From: a virus
Direction: 5' to 3' (one strand)
DNA length: 32,176 nucleotides
Virus record (IMG/VR): IMGVR_UViG_3300038701_001751
Coordinates: 1 to 32,176 of that record
Of this stretch, positions 4,921-29,586 are shown piece after piece (the stretch's first letter is position 1; the number at the start of each line of letters is the position of its first letter). The notes below the pieces were generated by a model. The model saw only the letters and a program-made list of their open reading frames with translations, was not told where the DNA came from and made no database searches. The position numbers were made by a program, and so were the translations under genes.

Positions 4921-6191
4921 GAATTGCCAGCGGAGATACAGGTCGTGAGGTGGCGTTCGTTGCTGTAGACGCCACGGACTTTACTACGAGGGAGACGGGG
5001 CTCACCACTTTTACGGTTTACCGTATGCGGGATGGTGGGACGCCTGCCGCGATGACTACGCCGACGATCACAGAGGTCTCATCGGCCAATATGCCCGGTG
5101 TCTACACTCTGTTGCTTGATGAGGACACCACCATCGGCGCGGGGAACGATGAGGAGGAGATGGTTTTCCACATCACGCACGCTGGCATGGCCCCTGTAAC
5201 CCTTACTGTTGAGCTATTCAGGCCCAAGTACACCGAAGGTAGCACCCTGAGCGCGGCAGCCATCAACGCCGAGTGTGACACCGCGATCAGCGACGCATCC
5301 CTTGCAACTGCCGCGAATCTTGCGGTCGTCGATGCAAACGTGGACTTGGTTCTTGCGGACACCAATGAGCTGCAAACCAACCAAGGCAACTGGGTGACCG
5401 CTACAGGGTTCGCCACCGCTGCTGCGCTGGCGACAGTGGATGCGAATCTGGACGCGGTGCTACTGGACACCGGCACAACCCTTCCCGCAACCCTCTCGTC
5501 CATCGAAGGCAAGATAGACACGGTGGACACTGTAGCTGATGGCATTCAGACCGACCTCAGCAACGGCACAGACGGTCTCGGTGCAATAAAGGCAGCTGTC
5601 GACGCTATCCCGACCAGCAACCCCAGTGCAGCCAGCATCGCAGACGCTGTATGGACAGAAGCCATTGCGGATCACTCAGGCGGTGTGGGAAGCACAGCGG
5701 AGGCGCTGGATGGAGCCGGGGCTGGTGGCGGATTGGACGCCGCGGGCGTCAGGGCGGCCGTAGGCCTTGCTAGTGCTAACCTCGACACGCAGCTCGGCAC
5801 CATTGATGGTAATGTAGATTTGGTGCTTGTCGACACAGATACCACGATACCCGGCCTGATCGGAGGCCTGAACAATTTTGACCCCGCCACCGACACAGTA
5901 GACGTCGGGGCAATAAATGGAAGCGCTGAGGCGGCGGCTGACCTTGCGCTGTCGGCTGCAACGATTGTATCTGGCTCGGCAGCATCAGGCACTCTGTCCA
6001 CCACCGCCATGACGACAAACCTGACCGAGGTGACCGACGACCACTACAACGGCCGAATCATCATCTGGACATCTGGTGTGCTGAAGGATCAGGCCACCAA
6101 CATCACTGACTACGACGGAGCCAGCAAGCTCCTCACGTTCACCGCGGTGACAGAAGCGCCGACGGCTGGCGACACCTTCGTGATTGTGTGA
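4917..6191 (+). CDS. Tail/fibre protein with repeat-rich central stalk
   Basis: The protein has 424 residues. The N-terminal domain (about 1-105) is beta-rich, with TTFTVYRMRDGG, MPGVYTLLLDEDTT and APVTLTVELF, a pattern seen in phage tail proteins. The central part is low-complexity with an imperfect repeated unit: VDANVDLVLADT, VDANLDAVLLDT, IDGNVDLVLVDTDT. The repeats suggest a stalk, perhaps a trimeric coiled coil. The C-terminal 55 residues (around HYNGRIIIWTSGVLKDQ to AGDTFVIV) match in style a small beta domain that ends many marine phage tail proteins. A structural role in the tail tip or fibre is inferred from these features and the neighbouring beta-helix genes. Confidence 0.75.
   Translation: MRIASGDTGREVAFVAVDATDFTTRETGLTTFTVYRMRDGGTPAAMTTPTITEVSSANMPGVYTLLLDEDTTIGAGNDEEEMVFHITHAGMAPVTLTVELFRPKYTEGSTLSAAAINAECDTAISDASLATAANLAVVDANVDLVLADTNELQTNQGNWVTATGFATAAALATVDANLDAVLLDTGTTLPATLSSIEGKIDTVDTVADGIQTDLSNGTDGLGAIKAAVDAIPTSNPSAASIADAVWTEAIADHSGGVGSTAEALDGAGAGGGLDAAGVRAAVGLASANLDTQLGTIDGNVDLVLVDTDTTIPGLIGGLNNFDPATDTVDVGAINGSAEAAADLALSAATIVSGSAASGTLSTTAMTTNLTEVTDDHYNGRIIIWTSGVLKDQATNITDYDGASKLLTFTAVTEAPTAGDTFVIV
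5320..5850 (+). repeat. Imperfect VDxNxDxVLxDT repeats in tail stalk
   Basis: At least three degenerate coding copies of the unit Val/Ile-Asp-x-Asn-Val/Leu-Asp-x-Val-Leu-x-Asp-Thr are visible, near 5328-5363, 5436-5471 and 5799-5834. They are separated by Thr/Ala-rich spacers. The repeat is protein-level rather than an exact DNA repeat. Confidence 0.7.
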
Positions 6192-6194: not shown

Positions 6195-6581
6195 ATGGTC
6201 ACCTCGCTACAGGTCACAGGAACACCGGGTCGCGGATACCACGTTGCGGTCGACAGTGGCGAGAAGCCACCGGATCGCGTCACAGCTTTATCTGGCATTG
6301 CGACGCCCGGTGGTCTGCGGTTATTCCAGCCCAAAGGGGTTTCGGAAGTTGTACGCGATCAGGTCACCGAGCTTGCGGCATGGGCCATTCCCGGAAAGCG
6401 CAGGCGCTTCGAGGCGAAGGCACCGGCGGTCGTTGTATTATTGGGGGAGGATGTCGGTGGCGGCGGCAGTAAATACAAGCGGTCCCTCAGGGATCATCGC
6501 CAAAGGCTGATCAAAGAAGATCAGGAAATTCTGGCCATCGTGATGGCCGCGACAAAGGTACTCCACGAATGGGGACGCTGA
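6195..6581 (+). CDS. Unknown small late protein, 128 aa
   Basis: Three overlapping frames start here. I prefer the one at 6195 because its end overlaps the next gene by 13 bases and its composition is protein-like. The N-terminal half has short beta-like segments (VTSLQVTG, YHVAVDSG, LRLFQPKG). The C-terminal part has a glycine-rich turn and a charged helix (KYKRSLRDHRQRLIKEDQEILAIVM, shown here only as its character: basic then acidic). No known motif is recognised. Its position directly upstream of the giant polyvalent protein suggests a virion or assembly role. The codon choice between the two alternative starts at 6191-6195 is uncertain. Confidence 0.6.
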   Translation: MVTSLQVTGTPGRGYHVAVDSGEKPPDRVTALSGIATPGGLRLFQPKGVSEVVRDQVTELAAWAIPGKRRRFEAKAPAVVVLLGEDVGGGGSKYKRSLRDHRQRLIKEDQEILAIVMAATKVLHEWGR

Positions 6582-9500
6582 CACAATGTATCCGCAGCGC
6601 TGGCAAAGCGCTCGACGCATCTGATGCAGCCGCAGTAAGAGCGCTTCGGGATGAGCTGAAAGCAGAAGGTCTCGAGGAGCAGGCTGCCGCGAGAGAAGCG
6701 GTTCTGGCCCAGATTGCGGAGCTTGTGCGTCAGCGCAATGAGCTGCTGGAGGGTTCAGGGGTTTCCCCTGACCAAATGCCCAGCCCTGAAATCGCCGAGA
6801 AAGCTGCCGACTATGAGGGCGATGGATATTCGGTCAGGCGCGATAAAAAGACCGGCGCAGTATCGGTTACAGGCGATATCGCGGCGGCGCGCGCCATGCT
6901 TCCGGACGGCCTGTCTGGCCGGGCAACGAAGGACGGACTCAAGTTTACGGGGTCAGCTGCTGCGCGGGCGTACAACTCCCTGACCGGCCGCACCTCTGGT
7001 TACAGCCGCGCCGGTGAGGTGACCAAGCACCCGATCAAAGACGGCAAATACGTTGGTGCGCCACCGAAGTTTAACACCCCGGCCAAGATCACTAGCCTCA
7101 GGAGGTGGCTCAAGGGTCTGGCTATGGAGGGCGAGCCCGGCCGCATGTGGTACGAGAACAGCAGCAAGGCTGTGCTTGACTTCGTCGGCGGTGACGCTCA
7201 GGAGGCCAAGAAGTTCGTGGCTCTGCTGGCGATATACTCGGCACAATCCACTGTGTCCGCCAACACCACGGCGGCTATCCGCGCGTGGGCTCAGCACAAA
7301 GCCGGGCAGCCCATACAGGTCATCAATCGCGTCAAAGACAAAAAGGCAACTGCTGCGCTTTCGGACGTCGAATCCTTCTGGTCGGGTGAGAAGACCGGGA
7401 ACTTCTTCAACAACCTGCTGATCGAGATCGATGAGGATGTCCGTCAAAGTCAGGGCGCCACCATCGACCTATGGATGATGCGCGCCGGGCAGTACCCGAA
7501 CGACGCGCCGAACAGGAGTCAGTACGCTTTCATGGAGGTGGAGACCAACCGCCTCGCTCAGGATCTGGGGTGGGAGCCTCATCAGGTTCAGGCTGCGATC
7601 TGGGTTGCGCTCAAGGCCCGCATGGAAAACAAAGGCGTCAAGCAGCGCGTCAATGCTCGCTCCGAAAAAAATGGATGGATTCGGTTTGATAGGGATAGCA
7701 AGGGTCGGAAGATTCTGGTCAAACTGGATGCAGAGAAGCACCGCAACAATTGGCTCAACGAAGCCCTGAAGCTGGAGGTATCTCAGAAGGATACCGATGT
7801 CGCGAAGTTTGACTACGCAGATGCGCTGCGTCGCCATATCGGCACGTCATCCGTGGAGGGTGGTGCGCAGGATGTCATCGAGGCGCTAACGGACGACGGT
7901 GGTTCAGACCTGCTGGCAATGAAGGTGGGGCTGCTCTCTGACTCGGGAGACCTCGTGATCGCCCCCGACAAGGGCGCTTCCGGCAAAAAGTCCGCAGACC
8001 CCTATCAGGTCGAGAGCCTGAATATTTACGCTGACACCCTGCGGCAGCTCTCCGGCTCTGATCGCGCGCACTGGTGGAGGCCTTTCTACAGCGCTCTCAA
8101 GGCTGACAAGAATGCGGTCATGATCAACTTGGACCGCATGGCCACAGACGAGGAGATGGATCTGATCGAGGCTGCCGTCGACGGCTACCTTGGTGATATG
8201 GAGTGGCGCTCCAGATTTGCTATCGTGAAAGATCGCGACGGCGCCGTGATGATCAACTATGGCGCGGTCGAAAACGAAGACCTGAAAAAGATCGCCTCCG
8301 CACTCCCGGACATGGGGGCGGAGTTTGAGCAATTTGCTGCAGATGGGCAGATACTGGGAGACAGTAATGAAGAACAAGTGGCGGGGCTCGGCTCCGAAAG
8401 ACAGTCCAATATTCTCGCGTGGGCCAGAGGTATCGTTGAAGGACCGAGCACCGAAGCCCAGTCAGAAGAAGGGCCGCAAGGCGAAATAGCAGATGTCTAC
8501 GATGCCATCGAAACCCGACCAGAAACCAGTGCGCAGCAGCAAACTGCAGGGCGGTCGGCGATTAGAGACCTACTCCGACGGCTCGACGCTATTGCTGAAG
8601 CATGGTCTGGTCGTGGGGTGGACGGAGAGCAAAGCACCCTACTCGGATCAAGGCTCGCCGCAGGATTCCGAGCAGGAGAGCCGCAGCAGCTGATCGGAAA
8701 GAAGGCCGACACCGGCGCAGACGTAGCGGCGCTGGCGCAGGTGTACCGTGACCCGCGCTTCGAGACCCTGAGGGCAGTGTTTGTGAAGGGCGGCAAGGTG
8801 GTTGGCGAGAGCGCCGTCACTTCCCGAATGCCGGGCGCCGTATCTTTCAAGCACTTCAAAGCCTACTCGGATCACATCCAGAAGCACATGGATAAGCTTG
8901 GCGCCGACGGCTACTACATGCTGCACAATCACCCGTCCGGGGTGTCCACGCCTTCGGCGTCTGACCGGAAGTTTACGCAAAACGTCACCAGCGCAGTGCC
9001 CGGGTTCGTTGATCACGTCATCATCGACTTCAATGAATTCAGCACCCTCAACGCTGACGGCAGCTCGGGCGTGGAGCGCAAGCAGGCGGACTTCGGTGCA
9101 GTGGACTTCTACGGAAATCCAGAGGTCGACAATGAGGTGCTCGGCGATACGATCACTGGACCTGATCAGGCTGGCCGGGTAGCCAGAACGGTAGCAGATC
9201 CAAACCGGCCTGTGGTTGTGATTGTAAACTCTCAAGGCAACGTGCAGATCGTCACCTCGCTGGCACCGAAGACGCTCGAGCTTCTGCACTCCAAGGGGCC
9301 CGCCGCTACGCGAGCTAAGGCCACGCTGCGCGCCATTCTGCGAGAGGGTGGGGCCGGCGGGCGCATGTTCCTCGTGATGCCTGAGAACTCTGATCGGGAG
9401 AGCCAGATCGACGTTGCGGCCTCTGATGGGATAGACCTGTTCGCCGACGCGTTCACTGCCGACGGCAGGTCAATTCCATTTGCGCAGAGCGGCAACGATG

Positions 9501-12500
9501 TAAACCAAAGGCTTAACAGAATCGCGCCGATTGTAGAGGAAAGGCTTGAAGGCCTTCCGGACACAGTCGTGGTAGACGGGCGTGAGGTCGCGTTCGAGGA
9601 CTTCCCGCCGGCGAAGGAAGCCGCCCGCAAGTACATGAAGTCTGCAGGACTCGAGTACAACGAGCCGACCGAGTACGCGCCTCTGGATCAAAGACGCGCC
9701 CGGAAGATCGCTCGCGAGTTCGAGGAGATGCAGCACGCCCCGAATGACCCTGCGGTAAAGGCCGCCTATCAGGCGATGATCGACGAGACACTTGCCCAGT
9801 ATCAGGCTGTTCTGGACACCGGTCTCACCGTGAGATTCATCACTGGCGCGGATCCTTACGGGAATCCTCGGAACGCCATTCTGGATGTGGTGGAGAACAA
9901 CAACATGTTCGTGTTCTCGACCCGCGACGGGTTCGGCAGCGACGAGAACTTCGATGCCAGCGAAAACCCGCTGCTGCAGGAGACGGAGTTCAAGACGGCG
10001 GATGGCGACCCCATGCTCGCTAACGACGTGTTCCGGGTCGTGCATGACTACTTCGGCCACATCAAGAACGGTGTTGGCTTCCGCGCCAGAGGGGAGGAGA
10101 ATGCATGGCAGTCTCACGCCGCTATGTACTCACCACTCGCCCGGCGCGCGATGACCACGGAAACCCGCGGTCAAAACAGCTGGGTCAACTTCGGACCGAA
10201 TGCTGAGCAGAACAGAACCGCCAGCGGCGCAGACACTGTGTACGCTGACCAGAAGATTGGCCTGTTGCCGATCTGGGTATCAGAGGAGGGACGCCTCAGT
10301 GAGCGCGACCGACAAAATGACAGACGATATACGGAAGGGCTTGAGGGCGCAGTCGATGAAGGCCGGGTCCAGCTCACGCACTTCAGCCGGCGAGAGTTCG
10401 ACCGCACCAACCCCGGGCTCGCAGGAACAGGGCTCGACCGCAAAGTCAGCGGCCGGCGCCGGATCCCGCAAGTCACCTACTTTGGCATCACACAGGCTAA
10501 TGAAAACCGGTATCGGCGGGAGGCGGGCCTCGGGCGAGTAGAGACTCAGTTCTCCCTCCCCGCGGAGTCTCTGTACCCCGCGGACGCAGATCCGGATGGC
10601 CTGTGGGATTCCGGTGACTATCGCAAGATGCAGGATGCCGGGTTCTCCGGCTTCTGGTCCGACAACCCCGCGCTCGGCAAGGTCGCCGTGGTGTGGGACC
10701 CCCTGCAGTCTGAGGACAGCGTCGCCGAGGAGTCGGCCGGCTATGATATCGCCCGTGACGATATCGACCGTTCGGGGCTTTACTCCAATATGGCTCGGGT
10801 CATCCAAGACGCTCGCATCCCCGGACTGAAACCCTCGAAGCGAAACCCAGCCGGCGCCATCCGTGCGTCCAGCTGGCTGCAGTACCTGCGCAACCGCGGC
10901 ATCAAGCAGGAGGAGTGGCTGTGGACTGGCATGCGGGAGATGCTGAACTCAGATCCGCGCCGACGCTTCACCCGCGATGAGATGCTGCAGGAGGCTCGCG
11001 CCCGGGCAACCGAGTTGGGCGACGTTGTGGCTGGCGAAAACGCAGAAGCTTACGGTCCGCAGTTTGAATCGATGCACTCACTCATGCGAGAAAATCCCAC
11101 TGAATACTGGATGCCCGGGGAGCAGCAAATCACCAAATCCATGATCGGCGTGATAGCGTCTCCGCTGATCGGGAGGCCAACCCACTCACAGTCTCGTGAA
11201 CAGATTAATGACGACCTCCGGGGATACGCTGGTGATGGTAGTGATGTAGGTTTTGAGGTATGGCGCCCAGAGGGAAGTGAGTACGCTATCATCGGAAATG
11301 CTAACACCGATCTATATGCGATTGCCAAGGTTGAACCCGATGGCGGTTACTCGCTCGTCAGTGACCGGGGTATCATCAGCTTCAACGAAGCAAAGGTTCA
11401 TCTGCGCTCCAACTTGATTTGGGCTGAGACCGCTAGGAGCGGCGGCGCCAACCCCATGGAGGCTCAATGGGAAGAGTACATCGACGACGGCGACTTCTCC
11501 AACTACCGTGAGATAAAGGTCACGCTGCCCAACATGCCGGGCGAGCCCTTTATGAAGCGTGACCACTTCCCTGACCGCAACCTCATAGGGTTCCTGCGCG
11601 TCACGGATCGCGACAATGGCGACCGCATGTACGTTGAGGAGCTGCAGTCTGACTGGCACCAACAGGGTCGTCAGTATGGCTACCGCCCTGAGATGAGCGA
11701 GGATGAGGCTGAGGCTCTCGAAGAGCAGGCCAAGCAGCGTCTGGTGGCGGCAAGAGCGGCGCTTGAGGTTGGCCTGAAGGATATTATAGAGGTTGAATTT
11801 CGACCGGACGTGAAAAGTATTGCGCGCACACTGGCGCACAAAGCCTCCAAGAAGGCCCATGAGAGAGCCGGCATCCTTCCGCCGAGGAGGGCGCCTGAAT
11901 TCAACACGTACCTAGCGCAGAGTTATAGAGATCAGCTCCCGAGTGGGTTGATGGAGGAGTTGGATGCCGCTGCTGATGAGGTCGCGCAGATGCGCAAGGC
12001 CCTGAGCTTCCAAGTCCCTGACGCGCCGTTCAAGAATGACGCGTGGATCAGCCTTCTGGCCAAGCGCGCTCTGGTGGATGCGGCACGAGGTGACTACAAA
12101 ACCCTCAGCTGGGCGACCGGAAAGACCGTGGAGGACCGCTGGAGTAGTGAGTATTCTCAGCTGTACTCAGAGACCTACGACAAGAAGTTTCCGGCCGCCA
12201 TCAAAAGGGCCGCTGGGGTCAAGCCAGAGAGGAAGCTGATACCCAAATCTGGCCCCACGGCTAGTGTCACAGAGTGGATGGTGGTCGACAAAAATGACCC
12301 CGAGGATAGCCGCACCCTCAGAGAAGTTGCCGAGTACGTGGAAGAGGACCGCATCACAGACTTTGAAAACCCTGATCCACAGATGGCAGGAGAAGTAGCG
12401 TTCGCTTTCAGTACCGGGGCTGACTACACCGCCATGAGCCCGCAGGAGTACAACCAGCGGGCCAACTTCACTGAAGTCTGGGAGATAGATATCACTCCCG

Positions 12501-15500
12501 ACCTGCGCGCTCAAGTCCTGAATGAAGGCCTGCCGATGTTCATGGCAGCTGAGGGTAGAACTGGGCGCACGGTAGAGCAGGTGAAGGCCGACATTGCTGA
12601 CCTAAACCTCGGTGACGTCAAGGTCATCACCTCTGACCAGATGCCGCAGAAGGTTAAGGACCTGATGCCCAGTCAGGGCGTGTTCGCCATCGCCGGGTAT
12701 TACGACCGCGCTACAGGCGAGATGGCATTGATCGCGGACAACATCCGGAACAAGAAGCACGCTCAGGCTACGGTGCTGCACGAGGCCGTCGGTCACCGCG
12801 GCATTGAGAACCTGCTCGGAGACCAGTTCCCTGACTTCCTGCGTCAGGTGATGTCTGCGCGCGGCAGGGATGAGGTTATCGACGCGGCGTGGGATCACGT
12901 GGAGCGCAACTATCCTACCGCTGGCCGGGGCACAAAGGCCGCTGAGGTTATCGCCAGAATCGCGGAGTCTGATCCGAAGCACACCTTCGTGCAGCGCATG
13001 GTGCAGTGGATGCGTCAGGCCCTGCGCAAGCTGGGCTTCAACGTGGCGTTCACCAACGGTGACATCATCGAGGCCCTACGCCGGGCCAAGCAGGTGGTGC
13101 AGAACGAGTCTCAGGGCGAGGGCGTAAGCCTAAGCAGTGAGACGGTCAACGACGATGCCGCCCCGGAGAGCGGCGACATCCTGTTCAGCTCCGCCAGCAA
13201 CAACCCTCCCTTCGAGGCCCCAGAGGAGCGCCCGAGGGACCGATTCATACGCGGCATTCAGGATAAGTTCGAGGTCCTGAAGCGTCTGCAGCGCAACATC
13301 TCGGACTCCGGCGGCGTGGTTGACGACAGCACCGACGCGTATGTCGCCGAGACCCTGTTCCACGGCAAGGCGGAAAATGATCTGCGGATCATGAAGGAAA
13401 CCTACGTCAAGGCTCTGGCCAACCTGCTGGCAAAAACCGGTATCAGTCAGCAGCAGCTCGACCAGTACCTGTACGCCATGCACGCGCCTGAGCGGAACGC
13501 ATACATCGCGAGCATCAACGAGAAGTTCCCTGACGGCGGGTCTGGCATGACCGACACGAAGGCCGGGACCATTCTGGCCCGGGTCAAGAAGTCAGGTCAG
13601 CAGAAGGAATACGAGGCCGCCGCTGCCATCGTGTACAAGATGATCGAGGAGCAGCGCCGCATGGTAGAGCAGGGCGGCCTCGAGGACGACGGCACCGTTG
13701 CGATGTGGCGAAACCAGTACAAGCACTACGTGCCGCTGAAGGGGTTCGCGGAGGACTCTCGCGAGTTCGACACCGGCCCGCGCGCAGGTCGCGGTTTTGA
13801 CATCCGGGGCAAAGAGACGAAGAGCGCTCTGGGTCGTGGATCCGAGGCGGCAAGCCCCAGCTCTCAGGCAATCGTCGACCTGACAGAGAAGGTCGTGCGC
13901 CGCCGCAAGAACGAGGTCGGCAACACGCTGCTGCGTCTGGTCGAGCAGAACCCCAACTCGGACTACTGGGAGGTGTTCACCGACGAGAACCCAGACACTC
14001 AGCCCACCCGGGTGGAGCGCGGTGGTGAGGTGATCGTGGAAGACCGAGCCGTCAGCATGCGCAACAACCAGAACTACTTCATGACCAAGCGCAAAGGCAA
14101 GGCGTACTTCATCAAGATCAAAGACAAGCGCCTCCTGACCGCTATGCAGAACCTCGGCGTCAATGAGATGGGCCCGGTGATCCGCAGCCTCGCCACCGTC
14201 AACCGGTGGATGTCTGCGCTGAACACCAGCTACTCTCCGGAGTTCATGATCAGCAACTTCTTCCGCGACATCCAGACCGCCATGCTGAACCTTCAGGCGG
14301 AGCAGTCCATGGGGCCGCAGGGCAAGGCCTACGCGAAGAAGATCGCTGCCAAGGCCGGCAAGAGTGCCCTGCCGCTGGGCCCCGCTCAGAGGGCCATCTA
14401 TGCGTCCCTGAGGGGCATGACCCTGAAGGGTGAGGGCGCCAAGTGGCAGAAGGCGTATGAGGAGTTCCGGGAGGCTGGCGCACAGACTGGATACTTCGAC
14501 ATGAAGGATGTCGCCGGCCAGCAGAAAGACATCGAGAGCCTGATGTCGATGGCGCAGGGTGGCTTCACCGGGACCTCGAAGAAGTGGGGCCTCGCTGTCA
14601 GAGATTGGGTGGAGGACATCAACCGCACGGTCGAGAACACCATCCGACTGACGGCCTACTATCACGCCCGGGAGGCAGGCATCAGCAAGACCAAGGCGGC
14701 CAGCCTCGCCAAAGACATGACGGTCAACTTCAACCGCCGTGGCGAATGGGGAAGCACGATGAACGCCCTGTACATGTTCGCCAACGCCAGCGTTCAGGGC
14801 ACCGCAAACTTCCTGCGCACGATGGCTACGCCGAAGCCCGGCGACGGTCCGGTGGTCACTCGCCTGAACGCAGCGCAGAAGATCGCCGCCGGACTGATGA
14901 CGATGTCGGCTTCACTGGCTTGGCTGAACTACTCGATGGGCGGCGAAGACGACGACGGCCGGAAGTGGTACGACAAGGTGCCGGACTGGGTGCGCGAGCG
15001 TAACCTCGTGATCATGAAGTCCGTCATGGGTGGCCCGCAGGATGGGTCCTACTGGAGCATCCCGCTGCCCTATGGCTACAACGTGTTCAACGTACTGGGT
15101 GACGGCGCGGCATCAGCGGCGCTCGGCGATGAGGGTACGCTGTACCACGCCGGCCGGGTCACGCTGGCGGCACTGGGCTCGTTCTCCCCCATCGGGTTTA
15201 CGATGTCCGACAAGGCTCCGGTGACTGGCACACTGGCGAAGATCGTCACGCCCAGTCAGTTCAAGCCGCTGGTCGAGCTGCCGCTCAACGAGAACTTCAT
15301 GAACGCGCAGATCCGAAGGGAGAATCTCCCCTTCGGTACGCCCATGCCCAACTCCTCGCTGGGCCGCAACAGCACGCCGGAGATGTACCGGATAATCGCG
15401 CAGTCCCTGAATCGGGTGACCGGCGGCAGTGAGATGCGCGACGGGATTGTGGACATCAACCCGGACGTCATGAGCTACTTCATCGACTACTACGGCGGGT

Positions 15501-15928
15501 CAGCGGCCGGCTTCGTGGAGAAGGGGCTCGACTACATCAACCGCGTCTCTCAGGATGTCGAGGTGGCTCCCCACAAGGTCCCGTTCTTTGGAAGGCTGGA
15601 CGGCAAGGTGCAGCCCTACGCTGACGTCGACCGCTACTACAAGCGGCGGGAGGAGATCGGTCAGGTGATGAACGAGATCACCAAGCACCCGGATCCTGAG
15701 GTGCGCCGTGAAAGCAGGAAGGAGCATAGCGGGCTGATCGGCATGGCCGGGATGCTGAAGGGCACGGAGAAGCAGATGAAGATGATCCGTCAGATGCGGA
15801 CCCGAGTCTACGAGGACGAGACCCTGAGCCTGAAGCAGCGGCAGGAGAAGCTGGACGAGATCGACCAGCGTCAGAAGGAAGTGATCGACCGGTTCAACCG
15901 GAGGTACGACGAGCGCGTCGGCGACTGA
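6569..15928 (+). CDS. Giant polyvalent (internal virion/ejection) protein, 3119 aa
   Basis: This single frame has regions that look like separate modules. Residues 1-70 are a charged helix. About 165-355 is a conserved helical block (around ENSSKAVLDFVGGD). About 700-830 is a RadC/JAB-like domain with E747 and an HNHPSG...D motif (H786, H788, D799). About 1000-1240 is a block with HDYFGH (1159-1164). About 1255-1390 starts LTHFS (H1271) and contains YFG (Y1304), possibly ADP-ribosyltransferase-like. About 1630-1720 holds EELQSDWHQQG. About 1990-2180 is a zincin with HEAVGH (2071-2076). From about 2540 the protein resembles LPD38, with a hydrophobic stretch near 2770-2790. Giant proteins of this build are the phage polyvalent proteins, thought to be packaged and injected to act on the host. 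Effector activities are inferred from motifs. Confidence 0.85.
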   Translation: MGTLTQCIRSAGKALDASDAAAVRALRDELKAEGLEEQAAAREAVLAQIAELVRQRNELLEGSGVSPDQMPSPEIAEKAADYEGDGYSVRRDKKTGAVSVTGDIAAARAMLPDGLSGRATKDGLKFTGSAAARAYNSLTGRTSGYSRAGEVTKHPIKDGKYVGAPPKFNTPAKITSLRRWLKGLAMEGEPGRMWYENSSKAVLDFVGGDAQEAKKFVALLAIYSAQSTVSANTTAAIRAWAQHKAGQPIQVINRVKDKKATAALSDVESFWSGEKTGNFFNNLLIEIDEDVRQSQGATIDLWMMRAGQYPNDAPNRSQYAFMEVETNRLAQDLGWEPHQVQAAIWVALKARMENKGVKQRVNARSEKNGWIRFDRDSKGRKILVKLDAEKHRNNWLNEALKLEVSQKDTDVAKFDYADALRRHIGTSSVEGGAQDVIEALTDDGGSDLLAMKVGLLSDSGDLVIAPDKGASGKKSADPYQVESLNIYADTLRQLSGSDRAHWWRPFYSALKADKNAVMINLDRMATDEEMDLIEAAVDGYLGDMEWRSRFAIVKDRDGAVMINYGAVENEDLKKIASALPDMGAEFEQFAADGQILGDSNEEQVAGLGSERQSNILAWARGIVEGPSTEAQSEEGPQGEIADVYDAIETRPETSAQQQTAGRSAIRDLLRRLDAIAEAWSGRGVDGEQSTLLGSRLAAGFRAGEPQQLIGKKADTGADVAALAQVYRDPRFETLRAVFVKGGKVVGESAVTSRMPGAVSFKHFKAYSDHIQKHMDKLGADGYYMLHNHPSGVSTPSASDRKFTQNVTSAVPGFVDHVIIDFNEFSTLNADGSSGVERKQADFGAVDFYGNPEVDNEVLGDTITGPDQAGRVARTVADPNRPVVVIVNSQGNVQIVTSLAPKTLELLHSKGPAATRAKATLRAILREGGAGGRMFLVMPENSDRESQIDVAASDGIDLFADAFTADGRSIPFAQSGNDVNQRLNRIAPIVEERLEGLPDTVVVDGREVAFEDFPPAKEAARKYMKSAGLEYNEPTEYAPLDQRRARKIAREFEEMQHAPNDPAVKAAYQAMIDETLAQYQAVLDTGLTVRFITGADPYGNPRNAILDVVENNNMFVFSTRDGFGSDENFDASENPLLQETEFKTADGDPMLANDVFRVVHDYFGHIKNGVGFRARGEENAWQSHAAMYSPLARRAMTTETRGQNSWVNFGPNAEQNRTASGADTVYADQKIGLLPIWVSEEGRLSERDRQNDRRYTEGLEGAVDEGRVQLTHFSRREFDRTNPGLAGTGLDRKVSGRRRIPQVTYFGITQANENRYRREAGLGRVETQFSLPAESLYPADADPDGLWDSGDYRKMQDAGFSGFWSDNPALGKVAVVWDPLQSEDSVAEESAGYDIARDDIDRSGLYSNMARVIQDARIPGLKPSKRNPAGAIRASSWLQYLRNRGIKQEEWLWTGMREMLNSDPRRRFTRDEMLQEARARATELGDVVAGENAEAYGPQFESMHSLMRENPTEYWMPGEQQITKSMIGVIASPLIGRPTHSQSREQINDDLRGYAGDGSDVGFEVWRPEGSEYAIIGNANTDLYAIAKVEPDGGYSLVSDRGIISFNEAKVHLRSNLIWAETARSGGANPMEAQWEEYIDDGDFSNYREIKVTLPNMPGEPFMKRDHFPDRNLIGFLRVTDRDNGDRMYVEELQSDWHQQGRQYGYRPEMSEDEAEALEEQAKQRLVAARAALEVGLKDIIEVEFRPDVKSIARTLAHKASKKAHERAGILPPRRAPEFNTYLAQSYRDQLPSGLMEELDAAADEVAQMRKALSFQVPDAPFKNDAWISLLAKRALVDAARGDYKTLSWATGKTVEDRWSSEYSQLYSETYDKKFPAAIKRAAGVKPERKLIPKSGPTASVTEWMVVDKNDPEDSRTLREVAEYVEEDRITDFENPDPQMAGEVAFAFSTGADYTAMSPQEYNQRANFTEVWEIDITPDLRAQVLNEGLPMFMAAEGRTGRTVEQVKADIADLNLGDVKVITSDQMPQKVKDLMPSQGVFAIAGYYDRATGEMALIADNIRNKKHAQATVLHEAVGHRGIENLLGDQFPDFLRQVMSARGRDEVIDAAWDHVERNYPTAGRGTKAAEVIARIAESDPKHTFVQRMVQWMRQALRKLGFNVAFTNGDIIEALRRAKQVVQNESQGEGVSLSSETVNDDAAPESGDILFSSASNNPPFEAPEERPRDRFIRGIQDKFEVLKRLQRNISDSGGVVDDSTDAYVAETLFHGKAENDLRIMKETYVKALANLLAKTGISQQQLDQYLYAMHAPERNAYIASINEKFPDGGSGMTDTKAGTILARVKKSGQQKEYEAAAAIVYKMIEEQRRMVEQGGLEDDGTVAMWRNQYKHYVPLKGFAEDSREFDTGPRAGRGFDIRGKETKSALGRGSEAASPSSQAIVDLTEKVVRRRKNEVGNTLLRLVEQNPNSDYWEVFTDENPDTQPTRVERGGEVIVEDRAVSMRNNQNYFMTKRKGKAYFIKIKDKRLLTAMQNLGVNEMGPVIRSLATVNRWMSALNTSYSPEFMISNFFRDIQTAMLNLQAEQSMGPQGKAYAKKIAAKAGKSALPLGPAQRAIYASLRGMTLKGEGAKWQKAYEEFREAGAQTGYFDMKDVAGQQKDIESLMSMAQGGFTGTSKKWGLAVRDWVEDINRTVENTIRLTAYYHAREAGISKTKAASLAKDMTVNFNRRGEWGSTMNALYMFANASVQGTANFLRTMATPKPGDGPVVTRLNAAQKIAAGLMTMSASLAWLNYSMGGEDDDGRKWYDKVPDWVRERNLVIMKSVMGGPQDGSYWSIPLPYGYNVFNVLGDGAASAALGDEGTLYHAGRVTLAALGSFSPIGFTMSDKAPVTGTLAKIVTPSQFKPLVELPLNENFMNAQIRRENLPFGTPMPNSSLGRNSTPEMYRIIAQSLNRVTGGSEMRDGIVDINPDVMSYFIDYYGGSAAGFVEKGLDYINRVSQDVEVAPHKVPFFGRLDGKVQPYADVDRYYKRREEIGQVMNEITKHPDPEVRRESRKEHSGLIGMAGMLKGTEKQMKMIRQMRTRVYEDETLSLKQRQEKLDEIDQRQKEVIDRFNRRYDERVGD

Positions 15929-16138: not shown

Positions 16139-16612
16139 TCACTCCATACCGTTGACCACCTCCCGGCGCAGGATGCGGTAGATGGCCTGCCACCCCTCGC
16201 CGTGAGGCTTGCGGTACTTCTTCTTCAGCCACCTCGTGACGGGGCCGTAGCGGTACTGCACGTGGTGCGCTACCTCGTGTGCGACCAGCGCCGCCAGTGC
16301 GCCCTCCGGCGTGGAGAACAGGCGGGCCCCGATGGTGGGATCATCCCTGACCGTTGCGTACTCCGTGAAGTATAGGTTCCCGGCCCGGTAGTGGCTGACG
16401 TCGATGCTGATGTACCGAGCGCAGCCGTAGCTGCCCTTGCCAGAGCAGTTGACGATGATCTTCTCCATCCGCTCCTGCGCCCGGGTGTAGCTGACCGGCA
16501 GCTCCCCCAGCTCCCACTTCTTCTTCGTGATCTCCCGCAGGCATCGCTTCGTGAGCTTCTCCACCAGCTTCGCCTCGGCCGCCTTCACTGCCTGTCGCTT
16601 CTCGATCTTCAT
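16139..16612 (-). CDS. SprT-like zinc metallopeptidase
   Basis: The protein has 157 residues. The HEVAH motif (H112, E113, H116) and a downstream HGEGW (H137) give the three zinc ligands and catalytic glutamate of SprT-like proteases, related to SPRTN. The N-terminal 55 residues are basic and helical. The core motif lies in a helix (ALAALVAHEVAHH). In cells SprT-like proteases cleave proteins bound or cross-linked to DNA. A phage copy next to recombination and SSB genes could clear protein roadblocks during replication, but that role is inferred. It starts one base before the next gene upstream ends and is part of the leftward operon. Confidence 0.75.
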   Translation of the reverse strand: MKIEKRQAVKAAEAKLVEKLTKRCLREITKKKWELGELPVSYTRAQERMEKIIVNCSGKGSYGCARYISIDVSHYRAGNLYFTEYATVRDDPTIGARLFSTPEGALAALVAHEVAHHVQYRYGPVTRWLKKKYRKPHGEGWQAIYRILRREVVNGME

Positions 16613-16985: not shown

Positions 16986-17270
16986 CTAAGGCCCGTAACG
17001 TCGTCTCTCGTCTATGAATTCATCCTCGGTGGGCTCTCTCTCGCTCGCCCAGCAGAAAGGGGTGGAGGCCCGGCGGTGTGGGAATGGCATGCCTATGCAG
17101 TCGCACGTCTCTGTCCTCCTGCGCTTGATCCTTCGGTGGTACTCGTACATGTCGTAGCGGATGCGGGCACTCCCGCACTGCGGGCACCGGCGAGCCACCA
17201 CGTAGGTGTCGCAAATGCGCCGCAGTGAGAAGTGTTTACCGCAGTCCTGACAGCGGTGTGGTTTCTTCAC
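16986..17270 (-). CDS. Zinc-ribbon protein
   Basis: The protein has 94 residues from a GTG at 17270 that overlaps the upstream stop as GTGA. Two CxxC knuckles (CQDCG near residues 7-11 and CPQCG near 29-33) form a classical zinc ribbon. It is followed by a basic stretch (HRRIKRRR), a CDC pair and a further Cys, then an acidic EREPTEDEF tail. Zinc ribbons with basic tails usually bind nucleic acid. An upstream-extended frame exists but overlaps the PEP-CTERM-like gene heavily and is less likely. The product is otherwise unrecognised; it ends at the AT-rich regulatory gap. Confidence 0.65.
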   Translation of the reverse strand: MKKPHRCQDCGKHFSLRRICDTYVVARRCPQCGSARIRYDMYEYHRRIKRRRTETCDCIGMPFPHRRASTPFCWASEREPTEDEFIDERRRYGP

Positions 17271-17485
17271 CGCCGCAGGCGTCTCGCTGCCAGCAGGGCC
17301 ACGCCGATTCCGAGGAGCGGCAGGCTGCCCGGGACGGGCACGCTGTGCACCGGCGGCGGGTTGGACGGCGGCTGGTATTCCCAGCAGGGAATGTTCGGGC
17401 TCACCACGGTGCCGCGCTGGCACTTCGCGAAAGCCCCTGATGACATTGTCAGCGCAAGCGCCGCTACTACTGCGATCTTTTTCAT
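17267..17485 (-). CDS. PEP-CTERM-like exported small protein
   Basis: The protein has 72 residues. Residues 1-20 are a Sec signal peptide (positive MKK, hydrophobic core, AFA cleavage motif before K21). Residues 21-48 are a short proline-rich segment with two cysteines (C22 and C34). The end is VPVPG (49-53), then a hydrophobic helix (SLPLLGIGVALLAA) and a basic RRLRR tail. This tripartite end is the PEP-CTERM sorting pattern, with Val in place of the usual Glu. In hosts, exosortase anchors or processes such proteins in the cell envelope during exopolysaccharide-linked export. No exosortase is seen here, so processing would depend on the host. It overlaps genes on both sides as ATGA and GTGA. 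Confidence 0.75.
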   Translation of the reverse strand: MKKIAVVAALALTMSSGAFAKCQRGTVVSPNIPCWEYQPPSNPPPVHSVPVPGSLPLLGIGVALLAARRLRR

Positions 17486-17727
17486 GACTTACTCCCTCCG
17501 GCGAGCCGGATCTGGTTTATCCAGTGCCTCTTCAGCACTCGGTATTTGGTCTGGGATACGCGGTCCACGTCGTTCCTGTCGACCATAGAGTAGATCGCTG
17601 AGGCCACTATGTTCCTCGGCAGATCCATCATCTCAGCAACCTCATCCACTGAGAACGCGTTCCCGCTGTTCACCAGTGGCAACCTGCTGATCTGGCTAGG
17701 TATGCTGTTCTCCAGCTTCTGTCTCAT
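17482..17727 (-). CDS. Small winged-helix DNA-binding protein
   Basis: The protein has 81 residues. Residues 25-50 have a helix-turn-helix look (AFSVDEVAEMMDLPRNIVASAIYSM, shown as character: helix, turn, recognition helix), followed by a short wing (VSQTKYRVLK). GGAGAGAG before the ATG gives a good ribosome binding site and decides the start. It is probably a transcription regulator of the leftward operon. The upstream 213-base gap may contain its own promoter, although I cannot identify one. The next gene starts inside its stop codon (ATGA). Confidence 0.65.
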   Translation of the reverse strand: MRQKLENSIPSQISRLPLVNSGNAFSVDEVAEMMDLPRNIVASAIYSMVDRNDVDRVSQTKYRVLKRHWINQIRLAGGSKS

Positions 17728-18431: not shown

Positions 18432-18908
18432 CTAGAAAGGTATATCATCCTCGTAGTCCGGCTGCTCGGTCGGCTGCTGAGGAGCGGGCTGTGCTGGCTC
18501 TGCAGGCGGGGCGTAGCTGTCGGCCTCAGGGTACGCGTCGTATCCGCCGCCGCCCTGCTGCTGACCGCCACCGCGGGAGTCCAGCATCTGCATTTCCTTA
18601 GCAACTACCTCCGTGGAGTAGCGGTCGGTGCCGTCCTGAGCCTGCCACTTGCGTGTCCGCAGCTGTCCCTCGATGTAGACCTTCGACCCCTTGTGAAGGT
18701 ACTCGCCCACCACCTCGGCGAGGCGGTTGAAGAACACGATGCGGTGCCACTCCGTGCGCTCCTGCTGCTGCCCGGTCTGCTTGTCCTTCCAGTTTTCGCT
18801 GGTGGCGATGCGGATGTTTGCAACCGACCCTCCGGACGGTAGGTTACGCACCTCTGGCTCTGCGCCCAGATTGCCCACCAGAATTACCTTGTTCACTCCT
18901 CTGCTCAT
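18432..18908 (-). CDS. ssb: Single-stranded DNA-binding protein
   Basis: The protein has 158 residues. Residues 1-110 are the bacterial SSB OB-fold (start [19 protein letters not shown], then [38 protein letters not shown]). A Gly/Gln/Pro-rich linker follows, ending in the acidic tip DYEDDIPF used to recruit partner proteins. It coats ssDNA during replication and recombination. Its partners here are probably RecT and the exonuclease encoded upstream in the same operon. The ATGA overlap with the DUF1351-like gene fixes the start. Confidence 0.95.
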
Positions 18909-19828
18909 GACTTGACCTCTATGCTTTGAATGGACTGAGAGACGCCGGCCTTCTGCAGGCGCTCTTTCAGCTGTCGTTCGACGATGACATCCGGCACCGT
19001 TACGGGGACCTCGACCAACAAGCTGATGGTCACGGCTACCTTTTTGCGGCCGGCCGGAGCAGGACTGCTCTTCGGCACAGGCACGTTCTCAATCTTCACT
19101 GGCTCGGCAGGGGGTGTCTCTATCTGCTGCTGCACAGCCTTCTCGATGTTTTTCTGGCGGTTCAGCTCCTCCTGCACCATGTCGTTGATGATCGAGTCGT
19201 ACTCGTCAGCTGACGAAGTCCTGAGGTGGCGCTCGACCCGCTCCCGAGGGATGGGCTCCGCCAGACCAGCGACATCACACAGCGTGCGCAATGCGTTCAA
19301 GCGGAACTTCACCTGCTCCTGAGTCTGGTAGCAATCCATGACCCGGGCCTCCAGCGTGCTCGTTACAGCTGACGTCAGGTTTCCGCCTGCTGTCATGGAG
19401 CCCAGCTTCCGCAGGTCGCTGATGTCGACGGTGCGGAAATCCGGAGATACTTCACGCGCATCCTGCAGCTGGTTCAGGGTGGAGACCAGCAGGTCGTTGA
19501 CCTTCTGCAGGCGCTCAGCCTCGAACCGTGAAAGCTGGCTTGTGATCTCCTGCCGCACGTCCTCGACGCGCTGCTCCAGCTCTTTCGCCGCGACCTCGAA
19601 GGCCTTGATGGGGGCCATAGCCTCGGTCGCCACAGCGCGCCTGCGCTCTGCGATCTGCTTCTTCACCTTGTTCAACTCGGTCGCCTGCTTGCGCGAGTCG
19701 CCGATGTTTTCGGTGGTAACCACGAGGCCGCGGAAGTCCTCCAGCAGGGCGTCCAGCTGCTTACCTACGGTGTCGAAGTTGTGCTTGATCGACGTCGTCG
19801 ATACTGAAATCTCGAGAGACGGTTTCAT
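18905..19828 (-). CDS. DUF1351-type phage protein, SSB/exonuclease neighbour
   Basis: The protein has 307 residues from the ATG at 19828, which shares one base with the upstream TAA (TAATG). The N-terminal 130 residues look like a long coiled coil ([19 protein letters not shown], then [16 protein letters not shown]), matching the DUF1351 pattern common in phages beside YqaJ exonucleases. The C-terminal 60 residues follow a proline-rich linker and form an alpha/beta unit ([23 protein letters not shown]). DUF1351 proteins have no firmly known activity. The gene context points to a recombination or replication accessory. Confidence 0.8.
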
Positions 19829-20544
19829 TAGAATTCCACCTGTATGTCCGGTAGGGTTTCGCCATATACCGAGGATTCCTCGGGGGTTATGGCGCCGCTG
19901 CCACGCATCTTGCGGACGGCTTCCTGCTTCTCCATGACGAGGTCGTTGAAACGGTCGATGTCGTCGTAGAGTGCGGTGATGTACGCATCGTCGCGGTAGT
20001 GCCGCTTCACCGTCAGGTGCAGTCCGATGCTCTCGAGCTGCGGCACGTATGTCACGAAGTCGCACCACTCGCGCTCAGCGATCAGCAGGCCGCCCTGAAT
20101 TTGATCCATGACGTCAGAGTCATCGTTGGCCATCAGGATGCGGTTGAGCTTGGACGGGGCCACGAAGCACTTGTACTCCGCCATCCCGTTGTCATCGATG
20201 AGGCCGTCAGCGCTGGCACCCAGAACCTCGCGGTCATCACAGATGAAGCCGACGGGCTGCACCAGAGTGCCCAGACGCTGCTCATGCAGCAGACGGGCAG
20301 GCTCCTCCATCTCTCTGCCCCGCTTCATGGCAAAGGTCTCAAACTCCTCGCCAGCGATCACGGTGCCGGCCTCTCTCTCCAGCGCCAGCTTGAACGCGTA
20401 GTCGTCAGCTGCTGCGCTGCACAGTCCCTTGCGGGGCCCGGACTTCAAGGTCTTGCGCACCTCAGCAAACATGCTCGCGGTAATCTTACCCGCACGCGCG
20501 GCAAACCATTCCTCGGTGCCCTGCTCCATCTCGAATACGATCAT
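19828..20544 (-). CDS. YqaJ/lambda-exonuclease family recombination nuclease
   Basis: The protein has 238 residues from an ATGA overlap at 20544. The N-terminus EQGTEEWFAARAGKITAS is the family signature. The PD-(D/E)XK centre is visible as GREMEEPAR near residue 76, D113 in GASADG, and E123-x-K125 in MAEYKC. The enzyme degrades one strand from dsDNA ends, producing 3' tails for the RecT-type annealase encoded three genes upstream. The length is normal for the family, and the gene set exonuclease-RecT-SSB is a complete annealing recombination module. Confidence 0.92.
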   Translation of the reverse strand: MIVFEMEQGTEEWFAARAGKITASMFAEVRKTLKSGPRKGLCSAAADDYAFKLALEREAGTVIAGEEFETFAMKRGREMEEPARLLHEQRLGTLVQPVGFICDDREVLGASADGLIDDNGMAEYKCFVAPSKLNRILMANDDSDVMDQIQGGLLIAEREWCDFVTYVPQLESIGLHLTVKRHYRDDAYITALYDDIDRFNDLVMEKQEAVRKMRGSGAITPEESSVYGETLPDIQVEF

Positions 20545-20906
20545 GATGTAATCCTCGTCTTGGGAAACAGCCGGTGGTACTTCTCGAGGCAGTCGTCTGC
20601 GATTGGAAGCCCGGCGTCGATGTATGCCTGCAGCGTGAGGCGAGCGGCTCGCCACTTGCTGCCGGTCTCTGCTATTTTGTCCAGCATCTTGGAGCGCACG
20701 CTGTCCGCGTTGAACCCGCTGTACCCGATGCGGTCGTCGGCCTTCCCGGAGAACAGGAACTCCGCCGCCGTGTATGAGTCAGGAGTCATCCCGTAAACCG
20801 CGCGCTCTCTGGCCTTCACCAAGCGCACCCTCTTCAGATCCTCCAAGGCCAGCAGCAGGACGGAGCCCCACAGCGCCTTGTACGCGTCTTCGCTGTTGTT
20901 CATCAT
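20541..20906 (-). CDS. Unknown protein of recombination operon
   Basis: The protein has 121 residues from the first of two ATGs in the ATGATG overlap at 20906; the second ATG at 20903 is equally possible. It is mostly helical, with a charged LEDLKRVRLVKARE stretch near the N-terminus and a TAAEFLFSG segment in the middle. There are no Cys clusters, signal peptide or catalytic motif. I do not recognise the family. Position between RecT and exonuclease genes suggests an accessory to DNA recombination or replication. Confidence 0.7.
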   Translation of the reverse strand: MMNNSEDAYKALWGSVLLLALEDLKRVRLVKARERAVYGMTPDSYTAAEFLFSGKADDRIGYSGFNADSVRSKMLDKIAETGSKWRAARLTLQAYIDAGLPIADDCLEKYHRLFPKTRITS

Positions 20907-21136
20907 GATCCCCTCAGTTGGCGGCACACGCGCCGCACTTCGCTACGGATGGCCCTCAGGGCCATGTCCTTGTTTCGTGGTGAGGACGCGGTGATGATGT
21001 ACCGGCTGGTGCCCTCAATGCTGACCTGCCACTTCAGGTGAGAGGTGCGACACACCTCTGGCCCGGTGAAGCTGGCGCCGAGAGACTCGGCCACCTTGGT
21101 CCCCTCTTTCTCAACGCTGCGCTGGAAGTGGTTCAT
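20903..21136 (-). CDS. Small dsRBD/HicA-like fold protein, putative
   Basis: The protein has 77 residues from an ATGA overlap with the RecT stop. The sequence HLKWQVSIEGTSRYIITASSPRNKD followed by a basic helix (RAIRSEVRRVCRQL) resembles small phage proteins with a beta-beta-beta-alpha, HicA-like or dsRNA-binding fold. The catalytic His of HicA toxins cannot be assigned with confidence. It may bind nucleic acid in the recombination module. The assignment rests on visual similarity only. Confidence 0.6.
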   Translation of the reverse strand: MNHFQRSVEKEGTKVAESLGASFTGPEVCRTSHLKWQVSIEGTSRYIITASSPRNKDMALRAIRSEVRRVCRQLRGS

Positions 21137-22026
21137 GCCGCAGCCTCCTCGAGGGGGAGCGACTTGATGTAGTTGCACACCGCCTCGTAGCGCTGAGGGT
21201 TGATGCCGCCCAGTGAATCGGCTCGCGCTTTCTTCACCAGATCCTCCTCGGTCAGAGTCGACTGTTCGAGCAGGGAGCGTATGTGATCCACCTGATCCGT
21301 CGACAGACCGGCCGGAGGCTCTGGCGCAGTGTCCATGCCCTCGTGCTCGTTCAGCACGGCGACCGCGGTGTCGAAGCGATCCCTACCGGGCGCCTGTGGC
21401 CACGTGTTCGACGCGCGCTTCAGCATGGACTTCAGTGCCATGGGGCGGAACCACTTCTTCCACGGCCCGTTCTTGGCCTTGCTCTCGTTGCGTATCTTGA
21501 GCAGCTCATCGGCAGGCAGGAAGTCGCAGATGATGGACCCGTCCGGGGTCTTGGCGACGCAGTACGCGCCACGCAGCCCCTTGGATCCGTCGTTCTGATC
21601 GACCCGGCTCTTGTCGAACGGGTCGAACGAGTGCTCGGGCATCGCGAACATGCCGTTCCACTTAAACTCGTCGCCCTCGTACACCAGCTCGGACTTCGCC
21701 CACGATATTGCGCCAGACTCTGTAGCCAGACGCAGCAGGCCGCGGTAGCTGATGTCCAGCCTGATCACGCCGCCACGCGGCACCATGTAGGCAAGCTTCG
21801 TTGCGGGATTCAGGCTGATGCCGATGGCGCCCACGTTCATGATCGCGGACTGTACGGCGCCCGGGTTGCTGCGGAAGGCGGTGATCGCCTGATCCGATGC
21901 AGTGATCTGCTGGTGGGCGAACAGGCACTCGGAGCGAAACTCCAGACCGTACTTGTTTACCTCGGCGAAAGGGTTGGCGACGCCGTGCAGGGTGTCAGCT
22001 ACCCTCGGGGTTTTGTTCTCAGACAT
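21133..22026 (-). CDS. recT: RecT-family single-strand annealing protein
   Basis: The protein has 297 residues. AGAGGAG precedes the ATG at 22026, which overlaps the upstream stop by 8 bases. The core (about 30-225) matches RecT: IGISLNPATKLAYMVPR, VIRLDISYRGLLRLA, WSGNP-like region replaced by SKLVYEGDEF-type strand, then KKWFRPMALKSMLKRA. The C-terminal 60 residues are a helical domain (around TEEDLVKKARADSL) typical of the part that contacts SSB. RecT anneals complementary strands exposed by the exonuclease and binds ssDNA. The gene set gives the phage its own host-independent recombination. Confidence 0.92.
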   Translation of the reverse strand: MSENKTPRVADTLHGVANPFAEVNKYGLEFRSECLFAHQQITASDQAITAFRSNPGAVQSAIMNVGAIGISLNPATKLAYMVPRGGVIRLDISYRGLLRLATESGAISWAKSELVYEGDEFKWNGMFAMPEHSFDPFDKSRVDQNDGSKGLRGAYCVAKTPDGSIICDFLPADELLKIRNESKAKNGPWKKWFRPMALKSMLKRASNTWPQAPGRDRFDTAVAVLNEHEGMDTAPEPPAGLSTDQVDHIRSLLEQSTLTEEDLVKKARADSLGGINPQRYEAVCNYIKSLPLEEAAA

Positions 22027-22315
22027 TATCGATCTCCTCTGCGTGTAGCTTGAGATTCTCAAGCAGGATATCTGCCAGCAGCCGACACTCGTTGCTGTCG
22101 TTGCCACCATTGTCCCGCTTCTCATTGATCGTAAAGAGCAGGGACCGGATTGCGTTCAAGGACTTCACCCACTCCGAAGGCTTATCGGTCGGGAACAGCA
22201 GCGCGTCTGATGCGCCGTCCTCGAACAGCTCGATGTTGGACAGGAACCGATTGACCGCCGTGTCCTCAAGGGGCGTTGGGGTCTGCGGATCCACGATGTC
22301 TATCGCTGCGCTCAT
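22019..22315 (-). CDS. Small acidic helical early protein
   Basis: The protein has 98 residues and is not recognised. It is acidic and largely helical (TAVNRFLSNIELFEDG, EWVKSLNAIRSLLFTINEK, CRLLADILLENLKLHAEEI, given as patterns). There is no signal peptide or metal site. It is the second gene of the leftward operon; start and end overlap both neighbours (ATGA upstream, 8-base overlap with recT). In lambda-like phages this position holds small host-takeover or anti-nuclease proteins, but nothing in the sequence supports a particular one. Confidence 0.7.
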   Translation of the reverse strand: MSAAIDIVDPQTPTPLEDTAVNRFLSNIELFEDGASDALLFPTDKPSEWVKSLNAIRSLLFTINEKRDNGGNDSNECRLLADILLENLKLHAEEIDNV

Positions 22316-24968: not shown

Positions 24969-25900
24969 AGACCAAAACTGTTATCGCTGCGCGGAACCGC
25001 TGGCGTCCAATCCTCGAGAGCTTCGGCGCAACTCCGCGCATGCTCAGCGGCCAGCACGGGCCGTGTCCTGAGTGCGGCGGCGATGACCGCTTCAGGTTCG
25101 ACGACAAGGAGGGCCGCGGCACTTGGTTCTGCAACACGTGCGACCCTCAGGCCGGCGACGGGATGGACCTCGTGCGCAAGCTCACGGGCATGAGCTTCCA
25201 CGAGGCTGCCAACGCGGTCGATGAGTTTCTGGGAAATCACGACGTACCGGAGCAGGCGCCGGCGCCGCAGAAGGACCCTGCCGTGCGGCTGAAGTTAATT
25301 GGGCGGCAATCTGGTCCCGTGGTGGCGGATATCGACCCAGTGCGCTCATACCTGCGCTCACGCGCTCTCAGGCCATGTTCAGAAACCCGGGTGATTCAGG
25401 AGTGCGACTACTACGACGCCGGCAAGCACGTTGGAAAGTTCCCCGCGATGGTGCACCTCGTGCATGACGTCAACGGGAAGCCTGCGACGTGGCACATCGT
25501 GCACCTCACACGCGACGGCAAGAAGGCGCCGGTGCAGAACGTCAAGAAGATCCTGCCGCCGTCACGCCCGTGGAAAGGCGGATCCGTGCGCTTTGGCAAG
25601 GCGGCCGAGGTGATGGGCGTGGCAGAGGGCGTCGAGACAGCGATGGCAGCCAGCGAGCTGTACGGGATCCCTGTGTGGGCCGCGCTCAACGCCAACAACC
25701 TTGCCGAGTGGGTGCCGCCCCCGGTCGCGCAGACGGTGTACGTGTTCGGCGACAACGACCCCACGCTCGTGGGGCAGGCCGCGGCCTATGCCTGCGCGTC
25801 ACGACTGATCGTGAAGTACGGCAGGGTCGTGGAGGTGCACATACCAGACACGCAGGGAGACTGGAACGATCAACTAATCCGAGAGAGGGATGCAGCATGA
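24965..25900 (+). CDS. TOPRIM DNA primase
   Basis: The protein has 311 residues from the ATGA overlap at 24965; a longer upstream frame is rejected. A zinc-binding domain (C34, C37, C56, C59 in CPECGG and CNTC) is followed by a linker, and then a TOPRIM domain with the catalytic glutamate in VAEGVETA (E221) and the acidic FGDND (261-265). This is the layout of P4 alpha/T7 gp4-type primases without a fused helicase; the SF2 helicase next door may pair with it. It would make RNA primers for phage DNA synthesis using host polymerase, as none is encoded here. Confidence 0.9.
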   Translation: MKTKTVIAARNRWRPILESFGATPRMLSGQHGPCPECGGDDRFRFDDKEGRGTWFCNTCDPQAGDGMDLVRKLTGMSFHEAANAVDEFLGNHDVPEQAPAPQKDPAVRLKLIGRQSGPVVADIDPVRSYLRSRALRPCSETRVIQECDYYDAGKHVGKFPAMVHLVHDVNGKPATWHIVHLTRDGKKAPVQNVKKILPPSRPWKGGSVRFGKAAEVMGVAEGVETAMAASELYGIPVWAALNANNLAEWVPPPVAQTVYVFGDNDPTLVGQAAAYACASRLIVKYGRVVEVHIPDTQGDWNDQLIRERDAA

Positions 25901-29323: not shown

Positions 29324-29586
29324 GGCCTATGCTCACTTTCCCTATTGACACAAAGCACGGTCCCGGTGCTGTGCTTTTGGTTGAGATCCGTTCTATCATG
29401 CCGACGATGTCCGAAAAGGAGCTGGGCTGGAGCCTGATATACACGGACAGCATGCCAGAGGGGCTTTTGATTAGGGGCAACCCCAGAGACTTGGTGGCGC
29501 GATGGGAGGTGCAGCTTCAGGTTCTGGAGAACGGTGGTTGCGAAGACGAAGACGAGGAGGATGAGGAATGCGAGGAGCAGGAGTAG
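29320..29586 (+). CDS. Small protein with acidic C-terminal tail
   Basis: The protein has 88 residues from a GTG at 29320 overlapping the stop upstream (GTGA); ATG 29329 is an alternative. The first 65 residues look globular (GAVLLVEIRSI, LGWSLIYTDSM, LVARWEVQLQVL), followed by an extremely acidic tail with runs of Glu and Asp and one Cys. Acidic tails on small phage proteins can mimic DNA or bind a host protein, but I see no match to a known anti-restriction family. The end overlaps the lipoprotein gene by 19 bases. Confidence 0.65.
   Translation: MRPMLTFPIDTKHGPGAVLLVEIRSIMPTMSEKELGWSLIYTDSMPEGLLIRGNPRDLVARWEVQLQVLENGGCEDEDEEDEECEEQE

Follow-up and report, generated by a model that had tools for sequence, protein, structure and literature searches.

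The window, by which we mean the whole 32,176-base stretch of an IMG/VR virus record that was analysed, encodes on its minus strand (17267..17485) a 72-aa protein, P0001, which is a small, predicted secreted protein of PEP-CTERM-like design. From the N-terminus its translation reads MKKIAVVAALALTMSSGAFA/KCQRGTVVSPNIPCWEYQPPSNPPPVHS/VPVPG-SLPLLGIGVALLAA-RRLRR; the first slash stands at the predicted signal-peptide cut (after residue 20), the second at the start of the motif. We propose that P0001 may be a phage accessory protein made early, which is exported and sorted by host exosortase so as to alter the envelope, and we hold this proposal to be evenly poised between right and wrong.

Inspection and hydropathy showed that the N-terminus of P0001 has two lysines (KK), a hydrophobic core and an AFA cut site, and thus the kind of signal peptide found in PEP-CTERM proteins; at the other end, a C-terminal motif is followed by a hydrophobic stretch of about 14 residues and a basic end, as in PEP-CTERM tails. 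The exported part between them, 28 residues long, contained no domain recognised in NCBIfam and Pfam profile searches. A single-sequence structure model, which was of low confidence (pLDDT 63) and was consulted for helix positions alone, placed helices at residues 5-12 and 55-71. The original prediction had described a tripartite PEP-CTERM-like design with the Glu changed to Val, and all of its elements were recovered: predicted signal peptide, 28-residue part with two cysteines, VPVPG, helix and basic end. GC by codon position was like that of the neighbouring genes, with a GC3 of 0.79. The possibility that P0001 is a phage o-spanin (Rz1-like lipoprotein) was rejected, as the cut region reads ...GAFAKC, with Lys before the Cys, and there is no lipobox after the signal peptide. 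A lipobox (VVLGGC) is found in a 61-aa ORF at 29568-29753, overlapping ORF 29534-29917, upstream of the endolysin gene; it resembles an Rz1-type spanin, and with this candidate present P0001 is not needed as the spanin.

Features of P0001 and of the leftward gene set around it (positions in the window)
Feature	Coordinates	Strand	Basis or remark
Predicted Sec signal peptide, residues 1-20 (MKKIAVVAALALTMSSGAFA)	17426..17485	-	sequence inspection and hydropathy
Mature segment, 28 residues, C22 and C34, Pro-rich linker	17342..17425	-	translation
VPVPG, hydrophobic helix, basic end RRLRR	17270..17341	-	matches TIGR02595 positions 1-24
Shine-Dalgarno region of P0001 (GGAGGGAG), strong	17486..17500	-	sequence
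Upstream partner gene, 81-aa winged-helix-like protein	17482..17727	-	TGA overlaps P0001 ATG
Downstream partner gene, 94-aa zinc-ribbon-like protein	16986..17270	-	GTG start overlaps P0001 stop
SSB	18432-18908	-	leftward gene set, upstream of P0001; collinear in G004
DUF1351 protein	18905-19828	-	leftward gene set, upstream of P0001; collinear in G004
RecE-like exonuclease	19828-20538	-	leftward gene set, upstream of P0001; collinear in G004
RecT	21133-22029	-	leftward gene set, upstream of P0001; collinear in G004

The NCBIfam profile TIGR02595 gave P0001 18.9 bits, above its curated cut-off of 16, with profile positions 1-24 aligned to residues 49-72, the latter being the last residue of the protein; the Pfam profile PF07589 gave 19.4 bits, just below its gathering score of 20.7. 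When the whole window was searched in six frames, the tail of P0001 was the sole TIGR02595 match above the cut-off (E 7.6e-5). Across 50 other phage records two matches exceeded the cut-off, and both were real C-terminal tails; two relatives (L086 and L087) also gave matches under the cut-off, which inspection showed to be false. An independent profile, for which 22 distinct C-terminal tails were taken from other phage contigs and the window was left out, scored P0001 at 22.1 bits (E 1.8e-4), whereas in controls with 33,805 ORF segments (2.7 Mb) unrelated segments reached at most 9.8 bits and shuffled ones at most 10.2. The six-frame search and these controls ruled out a chance motif. The original prediction had offered PEP-CTERM HMMs as a check, and the TIGR02595 and phage-tail profile scores stood above background, with PF07589 just under its own gathering score. 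Because the profile scores are far above those of unrelated and shuffled segments, we conclude from sequence that the tail is genuinely PEP-CTERM-like. Pro-Glu-Pro is near-invariant in PEP-CTERM (Haft et al. 2006, PMC1569441), and in P0001 the Glu is replaced by Val, giving Pro-Val-Pro; for this reason we label P0001 PEP-CTERM-like and do not file it as a canonical PEP-CTERM protein, and we consider it likely that it works like one.

P0001 lies within a leftward gene set that runs in the order RecT, RecE-like exonuclease, DUF1351, SSB, a 145-aa gene, the 81-aa winged-helix-like gene, P0001 and the zinc-ribbon gene. Its two overlaps are of 4 bases each, ATGA with the upstream ORF 17482-17727 and GTGA with the downstream ORF 16986-17270, so that the gene is embedded in the operon from both sides, as had been claimed; together with the collinearity of this gene set with record G004, which itself bears a VPVPG gene, the overlaps upheld the earlier view that P0001 is a gene of the phage. 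The rightward genes include those for a helicase, a primase, a T5-A1-like DNA transfer protein and the endolysin. There were no tRNA genes and no exosortase gene in the window, and no near relative of it was found among sequenced isolate phages. A 157-aa ORF at 16139-16612 has a HEVAHH motif and a weak match to SprT-like metallopeptidases (21.7 versus 25.6 bits).

Searches reaching only close relatives recovered no homologue of the 72-aa protein from isolate phages, plasmids or GTDB genomes; in IMG/VR there was none besides that of G004. The neighbour genes used as bait found nothing, and the two-sequence alignment (A1) gave poor search patterns. G004 (IMGVR_UViG_3300040801_004012, 56.6 kb) emerged from a gene-by-gene comparison of 16 virus records, of which 15 were connected by the polyvalent protein, as the sole record whose matching genes follow the order of the window over most of its length, at protein identities of 28-71%. 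At 50025-50456 (-) it encodes a protein of 143 aa that consists of a hydrophobic signal at the N-terminus, an exported part of about 95 residues with two cysteines, and the tail NPVPVPGTIALIVIGLALLWRIKR. This gene is the best match of P0001 in the whole G004 genome (E 8e-4); the alignment spans residues 30-65 and thus begins before the tail, and VPVPG is its best conserved stretch. We regard the protein as a probable homologue of P0001 by sequence, and the proposed search of related phages for the same gene has thereby yielded one, with VPVPG kept. Its tail scored 18.7 bits with TIGR02595 in six frames, over the cut-off, but by hmmscan 18.0 bits as a tail segment and just 14.4 bits for the whole protein; on the latter account the PEP-CTERM-like call is weaker for it than for P0001. 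The phage-tail profile gave it 6.8. No match to it was found in the 50,697-record collection of isolate phages.

The VPVPG gene is placed differently in the two genomes. In G004 it too belongs to a leftward operon, where its stop overlaps (ATGA) the start of the homologue of window 20903-21139; beside SSB, G004 encodes instead a 183-aa protein (37862-38413, -) with a signal peptide (MKKTLIALAMIAHSAGSFA) and without a sorting tail. A difference in place fits the behaviour of accessory genes. The 183-aa product, which had no Pfam match, is another putative exported protein in a leftward gene set. The polyvalent gene also differs: the 4180-aa G004 protein, encoded by one ORF, corresponds to two pieces of the window that lie apart, 61-720 and 6569-15928, the first matching G004 25168-25659 and the 3119-aa ORF of the window resuming at G004 25765. 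Between these pieces (window 708-6191) lie about 5.8 kb of genes without a match in G004, among them one for a 770-aa protein with an EP-repeat (1016-3328). The split reflects an insertion into the polyvalent gene or else an assembly join.

A DNA pattern search of all IMG/VR for VPxPG[TSA]LxLLGxG found 39 contigs in 14 clusters. The motif began 22-35 residues before the ORF stop in 38 of the 39, the remaining sequence (L174) ending inside the tail, and the third motif residue was Glu in 37, Ser in two and Val in none. The tails of L161, L166, L172, L185 and L194 were over the NCBIfam cut-off. We examined the neighbour genes at five loci from four clusters. The L194 gene (9237-9986) directly follows that for the major head protein, upstream of which lies the portal gene; that of L191 adjoins a terminase gene and that of L166 is about 1 kb from one; that of L185 adjoins a DNA methyltransferase gene and is itself some 1 kb away from one for a RecE-like exonuclease; and that of L161 is flanked by SSB and an annealing protein with a DNA polymerase beyond, the same kind of place as that of P0001. 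In L173, as in L194, the PEP-CTERM gene stands right behind the major head protein in an apparent phage structural operon. A canonical family of about 245 aa recurs in L082, L160, L164, L185, L191, L193 and L196, with weaker links to L172 and L180; it is found once beside a terminase gene and in another case near RecE-like exonuclease and DNA methyltransferase genes. Among the remaining clusters there may be some that represent host flanks within virus records. The three surveyed proteins that were used as queries had no relatives in the isolate-phage collection of 50,697 records. P0001 is no lone oddity, since PEP-CTERM genes are also present on other phage contigs, almost always with the canonical Glu; the recurrence of PEP-CTERM-type labels in several unrelated uncultivated phages may mean that phages use the sorting machine of the host. 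Exosortase (PF09721) was found in none of 40 virus records, either related or PEP-bearing, that were checked, and therefore any sorting would need a host enzyme.

The mechanism that we favour would run as follows. The P0001 gene would act as an accessory gene of the leftward gene set, which serves recombination and is probably expressed early. The product would be exported through Sec and lose its signal peptide, while the C-terminal helix would anchor it in the inner membrane with the basic end inside. Host exosortase would then recognise the VPVPG-helix-basic tail despite the Val for Glu and cleave near the motif, releasing a 28-residue peptide with two cysteines to the periplasm or the cell surface, where it might modify the infected cell's envelope so that, for instance, superinfection is limited or surface polymer altered. 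The TIGR02595 score, the independent profile, the G004 homologue and the canonical PEP-CTERM genes of other phage lineages support sorting of this kind; counted against it are the Val, seen in none of the 39 surveyed tails, the PF07589 score below gathering, the operon setting and the weak scores of the G004 tail. The Val may be a dialect of the host's exosortase, or it may make P0001 a poor or non-cleavable substrate.

P0001 might instead be a plain inner-membrane peptide with a Sec signal, a short periplasmic segment, an anchor helix and a positive-inside end, which would work at the membrane, for instance in superinfection exclusion, with VPVPG just a linker rich in Pro and Gly and no sorting enzyme involved. 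The absence of the acidic residue makes this a serious rival to exosortase sorting, and we rate it a substantial possibility, though we would not expect it to be true. Its architecture would suit any signal-anchored peptide with a positive-inside end, both VPVPG phages have Val for Glu, and PF07589 scores under its cut-off; yet the profiles recognise the entire tail and not just its hydrophobicity, far above unrelated ORF ends and shuffles, and VPVPG is the part best conserved between P0001 and its G004 homologue. If the Val makes a poor or non-cleavable substrate, a decoy can also be envisaged, in which a near-minimal substrate made early jams the host exosortase and blocks the maturation of surface proteins and polymer. 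The exported part, so short and without a recognised domain, leaves little besides two signals, the tail is intact apart from the exchange of its key acidic residue, and the gene sits in the leftward recombination gene set. We nevertheless think a decoy unlikely: the G004 homologue has a larger exported part (about 95 residues) with the same tail, which suggests cargo, and phage PEP-CTERM genes elsewhere are full-size with Glu intact.

Two further explanations would deny P0001 a role of this kind. The lack of homologues outside G004 could mean that the PEP-CTERM resemblance is chance or that the ORF is no gene, which we find very improbable given the strong ribosome-binding site, the two 4-base overlaps, the typical GC3, the profile scores and the probable homologue. 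Least credible of all is that a host gene without any role in the phage came in through recent transfer or an assembly error; PEP-CTERM is a feature of bacteria and no sequence-close copy was found in other phages, but the overlaps embed P0001 in a phage gene set whose collinear counterpart also includes a VPVPG gene.

No description of phage-encoded PEP-CTERM substrates was found in the open-access papers that were searched, although an earlier one may exist elsewhere. Accounts of PEP-CTERM and exosortase have treated them as a system by which bacteria sort proteins to their surface, with ties to exopolysaccharide and to floc formation (PMC9850573 for the latter). Were phages to send proteins through the host exosortase, or to jam it, they would have a new way of remodelling or guarding the cell surface, and VPVPG would serve as a probe of the poorly understood specificity of exosortase, namely whether the acidic residue is needed.

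Several known systems invite comparison. An exosortase-associated tail with an aliphatic residue at the position of the PEP-CTERM Glu is that of VPLPA-CTERM, which would be a precedent for VPVPG; its profile (TIGR03370) was absent among the NCBIfam matches of P0001 up to E 10. MYXO-CTERM (TIGR03382), known together with myxosortase (PMC11980579), has a tripartite tail in common with P0001, but an assignment to it was rejected, as the score was 13.8 bits against a cut-off of 15.85 and the invariant motif Cys is absent from the tail. Bacterial PEP-CTERM proteins have signal peptides, co-occur with exosortase and are linked to exopolysaccharide production (PMC1569441, PMC3237569). With PEP-CTERM (TIGR02595 / PF07589) and exosortase EpsH (PMC1569441), P0001 shares the C-terminal position of a short Pro-rich motif, a hydrophobic helix of about 14 residues, the basic end and the predicted N-terminal signal peptide, and it resembles that system also in that the exported parts are diverse and unrelated. 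It differs in having Val for the near-invariant Glu, in being phage-encoded and in exporting 28 residues only; and whereas most bacterial PEP-CTERM genes form single-gene operons behind large intergenic regions (PMC1569441), that of P0001 lies inside an overlapping operon. No sequence relation to the canonical PEP-CTERM proteins of phage contigs (L161, L166, L185, L191, L194 and others) was detected outside the tail. Their exported parts, at about 140-220 aa, and their VPEPG motif set them apart from P0001; like it, they are phage-borne and combine a signal peptide with a sorting tail.
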